39,915 nt of DNA from Bacteroidota bacterium. Its GTDB lineage: Bacteria; Bacteroidota; Rhodothermia; Rhodothermales; UBA10348. The position numbers and the translations under genes are program-made. Location: assembly GCA_022567305.1 (NCBI GenBank), contig JADFHF010000034.1, positions 1-39,915 of the forward strand, given 5' to 3'. This document shows, piece after piece, positions 9,950 to 20,280 of the stretch; position 1 is the first letter of the stretch, and the number at the start of each line of letters is the position of its first letter. The notes beneath the pieces were generated by a model. It searched no databases, had not been told where the DNA came from, and saw nothing but the letters and a program-made list of their open reading frames with translations.

Positions 9950-10495
9950 ATGGAGGTGCTATCATCGTCTTCTGAAACACACGACGAAATGGCCAACCAC
10001 TCCGAATTAAAAGTAAAAGGCTTCCCAGGGGGATCTGGCTGGGCCGTGGCCTTTGTCATCGGACTCTCGATCGCTGGATTGGCCACGCTGCCTCCGATTC
10101 TTCCCGTGGCCGCGAGGGAGATTGTCATGAACCTGTTCTCCAGCGTATGTCATCAACTCCCGAATCGCTCACCTCATTTAGCCGGTGTTCAGCTGGCCGT
10201 TTGTCACAGGTGTATCGGGATCTACTATGCCTTTCCTGTTGCCGCAGTTTTATTCAGGGTGGCACGTGGTGCATGGCCGTCCAAGACGCATTTCGCTTCG
10301 CTACTATTTTTTATCTCTGTTCTTCCAGCCGGGATTGATTGGCTCGGAGATCTACTTGGATGGTGGGTGAATACGCCCGAATCCAGAGTGGTGACGGGTT
10401 CGATTTTGGGCATTACGGCCGGCTATTTCTTCACAAAGGCGATGCAGGAAATCGTGAGCGATCTACGATCAAACAACCGTTCAAAATCGACTTGA
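9950..10495 (+). CDS. DUF2085 domain membrane protein
   Basis: 181-residue membrane protein. It has the DUF2085 pattern: SSVCHQLPNRSPHLAG followed by LAVCHRCIGIYYAF, with conserved Cys/His pairs next to membrane helices. Four or so hydrophobic helices are visible (VAFVIGLSIAGLATLPPIL; YYAFPVAAVLFRV; LLFFISVLPAGIDWLGDLL; VTGSILGITAGYFF). The biochemical role of the family is unknown; the CHxxC-type residues suggest metal binding. Start ATG 9950 is used, with ATG 9989 (MANHSEL) as alternative. Transcribed divergently from groES. Confidence 0.85.
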   Translation: MEVLSSSSETHDEMANHSELKVKGFPGGSGWAVAFVIGLSIAGLATLPPILPVAAREIVMNLFSSVCHQLPNRSPHLAGVQLAVCHRCIGIYYAFPVAAVLFRVARGAWPSKTHFASLLFFISVLPAGIDWLGDLLGWWVNTPESRVVTGSILGITAGYFFTKAMQEIVSDLRSNNRSKST

Positions 10496-10586
10496 GACTG
10501 TGCCTGTTTGTTGAATACAACGTATTCTTCGATACAATTTTCGCCCGTCCACGAGTATATTGGACGCAAGAGATTCGAGGTGAAAT

Positions 10587-10694
10587 GCGATTCGAAGGGC
10601 AGTTCACGAAGCGATTCACGAAGCAATATTGAAGGCGACTTACTAAGCATCTTACTAAGAACATTACTGAGCACGTTACTAAGCAATGCCGAGC
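10587..10694. repeat. 12-bp tandem repeat spanning a start codon
   Basis: Nine contiguous units of exactly 12 bp starting at 10587, 10599, 10611, 10623, 10635, 10647, 10659, 10671 and 10683. Examples are GCAGTTCACGAA, GCGATTCACGAA, GCGACTTACTAA, GCATCTTACTAA and GCACGTTACTAA. The first bases (GC or GA) and the -TTACTAA/-TTCACGAA ends are conserved; the middle varies. The ninth unit, GCAATGCCGAGC, contains the start ATG of the next gene. Confidence 0.85.
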
Positions 10695-11171
10695 AAACAA
10701 CAATCGATCATACTAGGCGGACTCATTGCTGGACTTCTGAGCACTTCGTATCTCGGATTAATTAACGTGCTCTGTTGTGCCGGAATCATCATCGGGGCGC
10801 TGGTATCCGTGTGGCACTACACGGACACGAATGAGCTCACGATCAAGGCCGGACAGGGCGCGGTGATAGGACTATTGGCGGCCCTGATTGGCTGGGGCGT
10901 TTCCTTTGTCCTCAATTTTATTTTAATCAAGGCTGGCATTCGGTCCGATCTCGTAATCTCTCAATTCATTCTGGATCGCCTTGGCGATAGCATGCCTCAG
11001 GAGAGTGTTGATCAGATGGTGGAGCAGATGAATGCGGAAATGACTTTGGCCAAGTACCTGGCCGGCGCGGTCTGGGGACTGTTGTTCCCAGTATTTGGGG
11101 CGATCGGCGGGTCGATCGGAGCGCTCCTGTTCAAGAAGGGCGGCGACGAGCCGACGGAGTTCGCTGACTGA
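10686..11171 (+). CDS. Four-helix membrane protein of unknown function
   Basis: 161 residues with four hydrophobic segments: LGGLIAGLLSTSYLGLINVL, CAGIIIGALVSVWHY, GAVIGLLAALIGWGVSFVLN, and AGAVWGLLFPVFGAIGGSIG near the C-terminus. A soluble acidic/Met-rich loop (DRLGDSMPQESVDQMVEQMN) sits between helices 3 and 4. Gly-rich helices recall small DUF4199-type membrane proteins, but I do not recognise the family with certainty. The start codon is inside the 12-bp repeat array, so expression or start choice could vary with repeat number. The last 41 bases overlap the 3' end of the convergent gene. Confidence 0.7.
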   Translation: MPSKQQSIILGGLIAGLLSTSYLGLINVLCCAGIIIGALVSVWHYTDTNELTIKAGQGAVIGLLAALIGWGVSFVLNFILIKAGIRSDLVISQFILDRLGDSMPQESVDQMVEQMNAEMTLAKYLAGAVWGLLFPVFGAIGGSIGALLFKKGGDEPTEFAD

Positions 11172-16722: not shown

Positions 16723-16736
16723 ATGTAAGGCGGCAC

Positions 16737-17136
16737 GTACCGGCCTGTAAGCCGAATTCTGTCTTGCCACCCGAGGGCCGCGATTCCGGGCGGTGAGATC
16801 ATCATTTATCTGGGACGAGCGTCACCGCTCGCCTCAAGCAGTCTACCCGTACCGCAGATTCGGCGGGCCACCATATCGCCATAGGCGTGCGGTACTGCTT
16901 GACCTTGCACCCCGTGGGGTTTGCCTGGCCGCTTCGGTCACCCGAAACGCCGGTGGGCTCTTACCCCACCGTTTCACCCATAACCTGTACTTCTGAAGAA
17001 GCCATCGGCAGGAATGCTTTCTGTTGCACTTGCCGTCCTCGCTTTCGCGAGGCCTTCCCGTTAGGAAGCACGGTGCCCTCTGGTGTTCGGACTTTCCTCA
17101 CTTTACAATCGCAAAGCGCGATGATCCGACCGGTAC
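16737..17136 (-). ncRNA. rnpB: RNase P RNA (bacterial type A)
   Basis: Catalytic RNA of RNase P, about 400 nt, minus strand. Near the 5' end is the universal GAGGAAAGTCCGAACACC block; near the 3' end is ACAGAATTCGGCTTA. P1 is formed by GTACCGG at the 5' end (17136-17130) and CCGGTAC at the 3' end (16743-16737). Internal conserved segments include GGGTAAGAGCCCACCGG and GGTAGACTGCTTGAGG. Several spurious ORFs cross this region. The 5' end lies only ~23 bases after the stop of the upstream zinc-ribbon-family gene on the same strand. Confidence 0.95.
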
Positions 17137-17145
17137 ATGCGAAAA

Positions 17146-17167
17146 GGGGAGCTGTCGGGTTACAGCT
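17146..17167 (-). terminator. Possible short terminator before rnpB
   Basis: On the minus strand AGCTGT, a 6-base loop and ACAGCT form a 6-bp stem, followed by CCCCTTTT. It overlaps the stop codon of the zinc-ribbon-family gene. The stem is short, so the call is tentative. Confidence 0.35.
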
Positions 17168-17921
17168 TTACTTTTTTAACAGTCGTCTTAAATAACGTTC
17201 CGTCAACAATGATACGTCCCGTGTGCTCACACGCAACGATGCGATTTTGCTGACGAATCTCTAACTGTCGCTGTGGAGGAACCGAGAAGCCAGAGGCTGC
17301 TCCGCGGACAAGTGGTACCACAGCGCGTCCGTCGCGAAGACGGCTTCGAAGTCGTTCGTAAGCTCTCAGATACCTCGAATCAACGTCTTTAGCGGCCTTC
17401 TTACGTTTCTTCTCAATGTTGGCCTGTTCCTGCTTGGTGTCTTCAAGAACCTCCTGTAATTCGGTCTGTTTAGCGGTCAATACGTCGTCGAGCTCCGTGA
17501 GACGGGATTGAGCTTCTTCGACGGCAATGTTATTAAGTGGAGTTGCAGCTTCAATATCTTCGCCCTTTGCTTTGGAGTCAACGATCCGCTGCTTTTGGGC
17601 TTCAATTTCCTTCGTCAGAGCGTCGTATTCACGATTGTTGCGAACCTGAAGTTGCTGTTCCTCATATTTCTTAATGAGGCCTTCCGCTTCACTCGCATCC
17701 TTAACAGCCTGCTGGGTGCCAGTCTCAAAGTCAGACTGCTCCAGTTTCAGTTTCTCGAGTCGTAAAGTGAGGCCCTCCTTCTCATCCTCTAAATCGCGGA
17801 TCTCCTCCGGGAGGTCGCCGCGAAGCTGTTTTATCTGGTCGATCTTACTATCAATATGCTGAAGGCTAATGAGGGCCGTCAGTTGATCACCTATCGTCGT
17901 TTCGTGCGTGGCCGTTACCAT
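17160..17921 (-). CDS. Coiled-coil protein of the C4 zinc-ribbon (CdsZ/DUF164) family, ribbon degenerate
   Basis: 253 residues: a long antiparallel coiled coil (residues ~10-195, rich in Glu/Lys/Gln/Leu, with the conserved VRNNREYDALTKEIEAQ turn) followed by the family's C-terminal ribbon region. Relatives normally carry two Cys pairs around PPQRQLEIR. Here the first pair is replaced (VRGAASGFSVPPQ) and the second reads ACEHTGRIIVD, with Thr where CEHCGRI is usual. Only one of four zinc ligands remains, so zinc binding is probably lost, while the surrounding fold and PPQRQLEIR are kept. In many Bacteroidota this gene is the neighbour of nif3; here a small foreign locus separates them. Confidence 0.85.
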   Translation of the reverse strand: MVTATHETTIGDQLTALISLQHIDSKIDQIKQLRGDLPEEIRDLEDEKEGLTLRLEKLKLEQSDFETGTQQAVKDASEAEGLIKKYEEQQLQVRNNREYDALTKEIEAQKQRIVDSKAKGEDIEAATPLNNIAVEEAQSRLTELDDVLTAKQTELQEVLEDTKQEQANIEKKRKKAAKDVDSRYLRAYERLRSRLRDGRAVVPLVRGAASGFSVPPQRQLEIRQQNRIVACEHTGRIIVDGTLFKTTVKKVKL

Positions 17922-18048
17922 GGGTCAATCGGGGTATTCTGTTTATTCGGACAAACTATCGTGAAGCCGTCCAATAAATATTTCAAGCGCAGCTATAAAT
18001 AACCCGATTCAATCAGGAAAGTTCGCGTCCCGCTATGCGAAAATCATT

Positions 18049-18563
18049 TCAAAAAGCAACAGCCCTGGCACCAATCGCTACTGTACTTGCATGAAGCGCA
18101 AAAAGTCCGCGCTGATGAAGAAGGATGCCTAGTACAATACCAGCAGGGGAAGCCGGATGGTCTGCTCCGGGACGTCTTGAAAGGCATCAATTTGAATAGT
18201 GGAGCCACTCTGCCCGTGAAACGTGCCAATTTGACTCCAGTACATGTACGCGCCGCCAGAATTACTCACTACGTGACTCCCCCGTCTGGGGAGCTTTTTC
18301 TCCGGGTGCATAACCTCTCCAAAGCGAATGAAGACATCGGGAGTCCCTTCTGCGCTATGCTCCAAAAGCTCCGGTAAGGAGAACTCGGACTGAATATGAA
18401 GACCAAAAGCCAGGTAGTGATGAATAACGAAATTGAGGCGTTGGGCAATATCCGGAATACGTATCGGATGTGTGGAGTTCTTACCAACAAGAACGCCCCG
18501 CGCTCTGTCGAAGGCGAGGCTCACAGAATGCTCTAGCCAAAATGTAACAGCAACGACGTGCAT
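18049..18563 (-). pseudogene. Truncated, frameshifted HPr kinase-like protein of a RiPP locus
   Basis: N-terminal part of the HPr-kinase-related proteins that accompany PqqD/lasso-type peptide genes. The frame reads AFGLHIQSEFSLPELLEH then DVFIRFGEV, and on to IRLPLLVLY, where it meets a TAG at about 18130. Shifting frame at that point continues the family sequence seamlessly: GILLHQRGLFALHAST, then VAIGARAVAF, then a stop at 18049-18051. The family's Walker A loop (GPSGAGKST) should follow immediately but is absent; the next sequence is unrelated. The gene is therefore frameshifted and missing its catalytic domain. The first ~45 residues from ATG 18563 are not conserved; the real start is probably nearer HHYLAFGL. 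It lies 91 bases downstream of the leader-peptide gene on the same strand. Confidence 0.75.
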
Positions 18564-18654
18564 TCCGATGAGAGAGCATTTCTCTGGAATCAGGAACCAC
18601 GTGAAATGGAGACAAAACTACCCGTTGGTTGAGGCGTAATCTTGCGACACCATT

Positions 18655-18843
18655 CTATGAATAATCCGTGTGATGCGAGGAATGCTCCGAACAGCCGCCC
18701 AGGCTAATTATGTGCCCCATATAGTACATGGAGTCCATGGCTCCCGCACACAGGGTGGCTGCCGACGTGAGTTTTCTTATATCACCATACTCGACCAGTT
18801 TTGGAGCTTCGTACAATTTCCTCCCTGTGAGGGTCTCTTTCAT
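18655..18843 (-). CDS. Lasso/RiPP-type leader peptide-containing precursor
   Basis: 62-residue peptide. The first half, ending KLYEAPKLVEYGDIRKLT, matches the lasso leader pattern Y-x2-P-x-L-x3-G-x5-T, in which Tyr-Pro binds the RRE protein and Thr lies just before the core. The second half begins SAATLCAGAMD and has two Cys, several Gly, and a Ser/His-rich tail (CSEHSSHHTDYS). If cleaved after Thr-Ser, the first acidic residue is at core position 10, late for a classical 7-9 residue lasso ring, so a different modification is possible. No cyclase, RRE/PqqD or protease gene is present; the only partner is a decayed HPr-kinase-like gene downstream. Upstream, 18844-19128 is AT-rich with no recognisable gene. 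Confident on the leader pattern, not on the product. Confidence 0.7.
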   Translation of the reverse strand: MKETLTGRKLYEAPKLVEYGDIRKLTSAATLCAGAMDSMYYMGHIISLGGCSEHSSHHTDYS

Positions 18844-19128
18844 CGTAAATATGATTTTTAGGAACGAGTTCCTCTTTGACTAATACTCGGATACCCGATT
18901 CTCAGAGAACAACACATTTGCTGTTCTATTATCTAGAACGTTTAATTTTTCGTTTGTAGCTAGCGGGAAAGCGTGATTATAATTTCAATTGAGGATAATT
19001 CGAGTGAAAGCGCACTTCCGTCGATAAGACGCAGATAGGTCTTTCGCACGAGGTCGGTATTTAGAAAGGCCATTGCTGCGACAATTGTGTTCAGAATTTG
19101 CCCCGCCACAGGTGCATATCTGTCTTGA

Positions 19129-20280
19129 TTACCGCATGTTCGATATTTGGAAAGACGAATGGACGAATGTCTTGACGGGTGCAGTCCTCGTTGCCGTTCG
19201 ATTCCAATCGACTCTGGGAAGTTTAGTGGAGAGGTATTCTACGAGAATCGTCTCTGTGGCCCGTTCCGTTTCGTAGTGTCCAGGATCGACTAGAGCCATT
19301 TTCGGACCACCATCCGAATCGAGGGCTTCGAAAAAATGATGATACGTGATATCGGCCGTGACGTAGGCGTCGGCACCTCGCTTCATAGCGAGATGCATGA
19401 ACCGTGAACCTGCGCCTCCACAGACGGCCACCTTTTGTATTACGCTGTCGAGATCTCCTACAAATCGGACAGCCGGATTCTCAAGAGCGGTCGATACCCT
19501 TGCCAAAAAAGCGCTCAGAGGCTCACTTGAAGCCAGTTCCCCGATCGCACCAATCCCGGCGCTGCGGTAATCTTGTTCCAGAGGGAATAAATCGTAGGCA
19601 ACTTCATCATACGGGTGTGCCTCACGCATCGCTTGAAGCACGGACGGAAGATTCCAGCGAGGCACTTCGACTTCAATTCTGAGTTCTTCAACACGTTCAA
19701 GATCTCCACCTGCTTCTCCCACGTGTGGACTGGATCCCTCAAGGGGCCTGAACGAACCTGTTCCTGAAGTCGTGAACGAGCAGGAATCGTACTTACCGAT
19801 CCGTCCAGCCCCAGCTTTCGCCAGAGACTCCTTGACTGCATCTGCGTGAGAGGCAGGAACGAAAACGGCAAGCTTTACAAGGCGCTCCCCGAGGCTACCC
19901 AAAAACTGGATATTTTTGAGGCCGAGCTGGCCCGCCAGAGCGAACGAGACCCCGTCCTTCGCGACATCCAGATTCGTGTGGATACAATACAGGGCAATGC
20001 CGGCCTCAGCGAGTTTCAAGCCCAAGTGTCCAACAGGGTGATCTGGAGTCAACCGATCGACCGGTTTGAAGAACAACGGGTGATGGGTGACAATGAGCTG
20101 GACGCCGATCGACTTTGCTTCTTCCAGAACCTGAGGCGTCATATCCAGAGCGATCAGCCCTTTGCTTACATCTCGAGATGGGTCTCCGACATGGAGGCCC
20201 ACGTTGTCCCATGATTCTGCTGAACCGGTGGGTGCCCACTTTTCGAGAATGGTCACTACGTCTTGGATCGAGGTGGCCAT
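19129..20280 (-). CDS. Nif3-like dinuclear metal center hexameric protein
   Basis: 383 residues. The two metal-binding ends of the Nif3/YbgI family are present: VTHHPLFFKPVDRL and CIHTNLDVAKDG at the N-terminus, VTADITYHHFFEALD and LVDPGHYETERA at the C-terminus. A middle insertion of about 100 residues (with EVEVPRWNLPSVLQAMREAH) corresponds to the PII/CutA-like domain of the longer YqfO-type members. Widely conserved; proposed GTP cyclohydrolase-like or metal-dependent hydrolase, function unsettled. Starts 8 bases after the stop of the UMF1 transporter, same strand, so an operon is likely. Confidence 0.92.
   Translation of the reverse strand: MATSIQDVVTILEKWAPTGSAESWDNVGLHVGDPSRDVSKGLIALDMTPQVLEEAKSIGVQLIVTHHPLFFKPVDRLTPDHPVGHLGLKLAEAGIALYCIHTNLDVAKDGVSFALAGQLGLKNIQFLGSLGERLVKLAVFVPASHADAVKESLAKAGAGRIGKYDSCSFTTSGTGSFRPLEGSSPHVGEAGGDLERVEELRIEVEVPRWNLPSVLQAMREAHPYDEVAYDLFPLEQDYRSAGIGAIGELASSEPLSAFLARVSTALENPAVRFVGDLDSVIQKVAVCGGAGSRFMHLAMKRGADAYVTADITYHHFFEALDSDGGPKMALVDPGHYETERATETILVEYLSTKLPRVDWNRTATRTAPVKTFVHSSFQISNMR

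Follow-up and report, generated by a model that had tools for sequence, protein, structure and literature searches.

The lasso-type precursor gene studied here and the kinase fragment next to it are very probably a vestigial fragment of an HPrK-kinase-carrying lasso-peptide cluster, stranded between the genes for NIF3 and CdsZ. The window, which is the whole stretch of DNA analyzed, is 39,915 nucleotides long and comes from the draft genome of a Bacteroidota bacterium (115 contigs, 95.6% complete, 3.76 Mb). In a complete cluster, the RRE binds the YxxPxL motif of the leader, B2 cleaves behind Thr(-2)-x(-1), the cyclase links residue 1 of the core to an Asp or Glu at positions 7-9, and the peptide is phosphorylated by HPrK. 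Of the five sequence features by which a lasso cluster was tested, this locus lacks four, and therefore we file it as a remnant and not as a lasso locus.

Results

The ORF at 18843..18658 (-) encodes the 62-residue precursor MKETLTGRKLYEAPKLVEYGDIRKLTSAATLCAGAMDSMYYMGHIISLGGCSEHSSHHTDYS (18655..18843 with the stop codon). Its leader YEAPKLVEYGDIRKLT (18766..18813, -) fits the pattern Y-x2-P-x-L-x3-G-x5-T exactly, with the RRE-binding YxxPxL and Thr at -2, and the same spacing was found in the precursors of 15 relatives. The NCBIfam profile NF033521 (lasso_leader_L3) matched the precursor with 26.1 bits (E 5.6e-06), above the curated cut-off of 19 bits, and this was the sole over-threshold leader in the lasso-leader profile search across the 3.76-Mb genome. 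These two results indicate that the leader is beyond chance. The initial annotation had read a near-perfect lasso leader pattern in this peptide and had named a failed profile search as a refutation; the pattern was confirmed and the profile search was positive. The reading frame, which had been described as intact, has a clean start and a clean end and is open throughout. Pfam gave no match for the precursor peptide, and no close homologue was found in the order sample, the 394-genome phylum search or the GTDB contig scan. A promoter scan found no sigma-70-like site for the precursor, and host promoters may differ from the sigma-70 type. A literature search found no paper combining "lasso peptide" with "orphan precursor".

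With Thr at -2, the core starts with A1-A2-T3-L4-C5-A6-G7-A8-M9-D10. The two Cys, the late Asp (at core position 10) and the His/Ser-rich tail noted earlier in the putative core were all seen. The lasso ring acceptor is required to be an Asp or Glu at core position 7-9 (PMC10368454). Such a residue was present in 14 of the 15 relatives' precursors, and the first acidic residue of the core in the window is at position 10. An Asp that comes one residue late would be compatible with drift of the core or with a product other than a lasso. The core was not conserved in any relative searched (order sample, phylum sample and GTDB contigs). The last residue of the precursor is Ser. In paeninodin, the Ser at the C-terminal end is the residue that is phosphorylated (PMC7533575); by analogy, the C-terminal Ser of the precursor would suit phosphorylation by HPrK.

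Within the order, an over-threshold leader was found in 17 of 114 genomes and the B2 protease in 36 of 114. In most of the 17 leader-bearing genomes, the precursor has a cyclase as its immediate neighbor. The usual gene order in relatives is RRE-B2-cyclase-precursor-HPrK (e.g., L035); therefore, a precursor followed by HPrK is the normal tail end of a cluster. One genome of the survey (G055) has two near-identical lasso-leader precursors with a core beginning TLGDPFTGDQSFDVDGNVIEEG (L037:3375-3572 and 10438-10734; G055:C10), no B2 match and only a weak Asn_synthase match. In another (G034), a G055-like core occurs twice, once beside a cyclase and once on its own.

The gene next to the precursor is the remnant of an HPrK-like kinase (18052..18425, -), of which only the N-terminal half is left in place of a complete kinase with Walker A. 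By tblastn, it is homologous to the HPrK-like genes that, in many genomes of the order, adjoin a lasso precursor. The alignment opens at the domain start (HHYLAFGLHIQSE) and closes with RAVAF, the residues immediately ahead of the expected Walker A motif G-x2-GAGKST. There is a single frame change near 18138-18146 and a stop or truncation at 18052. The closest start codon in frame is a GTG, some 33 codons ahead of the point where the domain begins, so the original start codon may be lost. Taken alone, the kinase pieces had no match in Pfam or NCBIfam. The homologues and the alignment bear out the earlier reading of an HPr-kinase-like N-terminal half with a frameshift and loss of Walker A.

The flanking genes are native: a CdsZ-like coiled-coil/zinc-ribbon protein (17160..17921, -) and DUF34/NIF3 (19129..20280, -). 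CdsZ was found in 25 of the 27 genomes of the family. NIF3 lay directly upstream of CdsZ in all 20 same-family stretches fetched, with the matches 68-162 bp apart. The gap is 105 bp in the closest relative (G006, CdsZ 79% identical) and 1207 bp in the window. The extra sequence of approximately 1.1 kb runs from the kinase cut to the NIF3 C-terminus. On the left, native CdsZ-upstream sequence resumes at about 18047 in the intergenic alignment, and the homology to HPrK stops at 18052. On the right, NIF3 is conserved up to RTAPVKTFV and then ends in ten residues (HSSFQISNMR) unlike those of most relatives. Accordingly, the insert was placed at approximately 18047..19155. A GAAC-N16-GGTT element upstream of CdsZ (18001..18024, -) occupies an equivalent position in most loci of the family, which identifies the left flank as native. 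No convincing repeats were found in a search for transposon ends and target duplications around the insert. Gain of the insert in this lineage is the parsimonious explanation and is more likely than a series of losses in the other genera, each at this same clean junction. The element itself (GAAC-N16-[CG]GTT; window 18001-18024 (-), L059-L078) is ECF-sigma-like and conserved upstream of CdsZ in most same-family genomes. The RNase P RNA (class A) lies directly downstream of CdsZ (window 16732-17137, -).

A custom HMM built from the cyclase C-termini of 14 relatives was run on the insert. The top-scoring frame was 19148-18963 (-), and its score was matched by 2 of 1000 dinucleotide shuffles. This frame has the position expected for the end of the cyclase, some 120 bp ahead of the precursor. 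NCBIfam had no match for it, so that the assignment draws on the custom HMM and the shuffles. On this weak evidence, 18963..19148 (-) is a probable remnant of the C-terminus of an Asn-synthetase-like cyclase, covering its last codons.

The remaining enzymes were searched for in the whole draft genome. No B2 leader peptidase (Transglut_core3) was found, even at E 1, and no lasso-type macrolactam cyclase; the Asn_synthase model gave only short partial matches in long ORFs, which we take for other ATP-pyrophosphatases. No second precursor with a lasso leader was found in the draft. The precursor locus has no RRE (B1 protein). The only RRE of the genome is PqqD-like (C106:72753-72953, 47.2 bits) and adjoins a 359-aa HPrK-like protein, among glycosyltransferases. 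This pair (L008:11435-13011; G000:C106) has no visible precursor, and no leader-like peptide was found in 19 kb around it. Because of this context, the C106 RRE was rejected as the partner of the precursor. The initial annotation had called for a genome search for processing enzymes and further precursors, and of these only an RRE, in another context, was found. It had named the lack of any RRE or cyclase, or of a leader profile match, as counting against its proposal; there is indeed no cyclase, yet one RRE exists elsewhere and the leader profile is positive.

Discussion

The fragment of about 1.1 kb holds the complete precursor gene and the 5' half of an HPrK gene, and probably also the 3' end of a cyclase gene. 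It may have arrived as a larger locus that was later reduced by deletion, or the fragment alone may have been captured. Because no RRE, B2, complete cyclase or complete HPrK is left at the locus, and neither B2 nor a cyclase was found in the draft genome, at most an unprocessed 62-residue peptide would be made. The fragment is likely to have no present function. Two branches had been left open by the initial annotation, namely that the locus is dying or that the peptide is processed by enzymes encoded elsewhere and kept for its own function. The fragment at a conserved NIF3-CdsZ junction favors the former, and the missing B2 and lasso-type cyclase together with the context of the C106 RRE speak against the latter.

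The intact frame of the precursor is not evidence of selection. The kinase and cyclase remnants comprise approximately 190 codons with one indel, or approximately 250 codons with the precursor. At one lesion per 250 codons, the chance that 62 codons stay open is exp(-62/250), approximately 0.78. As about 78% of such frames stay open by chance, the open frame says nothing on selection. The locus is an example of cluster break-up in which a short precursor can survive intact by chance after the loss of its enzymes. It also cautions against calling a RiPP locus functional on the strength of a perfect leader and an open reading frame.

In the strongest rival reading, the precursor is an orphan still in use, which either is matured in trans through the C106 RRE/HPrK pair and an unknown protease or acts as a linear peptide. 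We consider this improbable. The intact frame and perfect leader, the C106 RRE next to its HPrK-like protein, and the existence of linear, cyclase-less relatives of lasso RiPPs (LPPs, PMC13381572) are in its favor. However, neither B2 nor a cyclase was found in the draft, the C106 pair is surrounded by glycosyltransferases and has no leader-like peptide in its vicinity, the open frame is expected without selection, and the core is unconserved. That the precursor was kept for its own function, linear or through the C106 RRE/HPrK, after capture into the NIF3-CdsZ junction is very unlikely; if it had truly been retained, the precursor would represent a rare case of a RiPP precursor that has no enzymes.

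A complete lasso cluster could also exist in the cell, with the working copy in the unassembled part of the genome and the copy in the window as a fragment. The state of the draft allows for this, and the relative G034 has a cluster and an extra stand-alone precursor. However, the missing part amounts to only some 4% of the genome and is unlikely to hold B2, cyclase and a second precursor together, so we give this explanation very little probability. For the B2/cyclase pair by itself, a residual chance of lying in the missing part has to be conceded. Draft genomes can contain false single-base frame changes, and the frameshift and truncation might then have been introduced by assembly or sequencing into a locus that otherwise works. 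This is hardly credible, because the kinase ends where conserved native sequence upstream of CdsZ starts, and the rest of the kinase, RRE, B2 and cyclase do not adjoin. A vestigial cluster fragment is our preferred reading.

Compared with known systems, the locus resembles lasso clusters of the paeninodin and Bsf type (HPrK, split B1/B2) in its YxxPxL...G.....T leader, the HPrK-like gene directly after the precursor, the probable cyclase end directly before it and the terminal Ser. Unlike these clusters, it lacks RRE, B2 and a complete cyclase, its kinase is cut before Walker A, and the first Asp of its core falls at position 10, outside the 7-9 range. A cluster in the same family (G007, 99% complete) shares the leader class and HPrK with the locus but has an unrelated core (AEYGGLD...LFAMASP) and retains RRE and B2. 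It is compact, with precursor, HPrK, an NTase-like protein (named from its sequence, not from a profile), RRE and B2 (L044:3844-6973; G007:C61), and only short partial Asn_synthase matches were found anywhere in that genome. Its core AEYGGLDAATHGLLFAMASP is common to two related precursors of G009 (AEYGGLD-x4-G-x-LFAMASP), of which one adjoins B2, RRE and HPrK; an Asn_synthase protein of G009 is on another contig. The G007 cluster may possibly be a cyclase-less (linear) lasso-like RiPP, and it is a better lead than the vestigial locus of the window. The logic of the G007 and G009 clusters resembles that of the linear polyphosphorylated peptides of Bacillota (LPPs, PMC13381572), but the B2 protease is kept. 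The window locus also shares with LPPs the YxxPx leader motif, an HPrK-type kinase and the absence of a cyclase; the LPPs' own RRE, SpI peptidase and YxxPxVLxHQxIxFETxxS motif were not seen at it (PMC13381572). Compared with LPPs, the probable cyclase remnant at the locus points to lasso ancestry.
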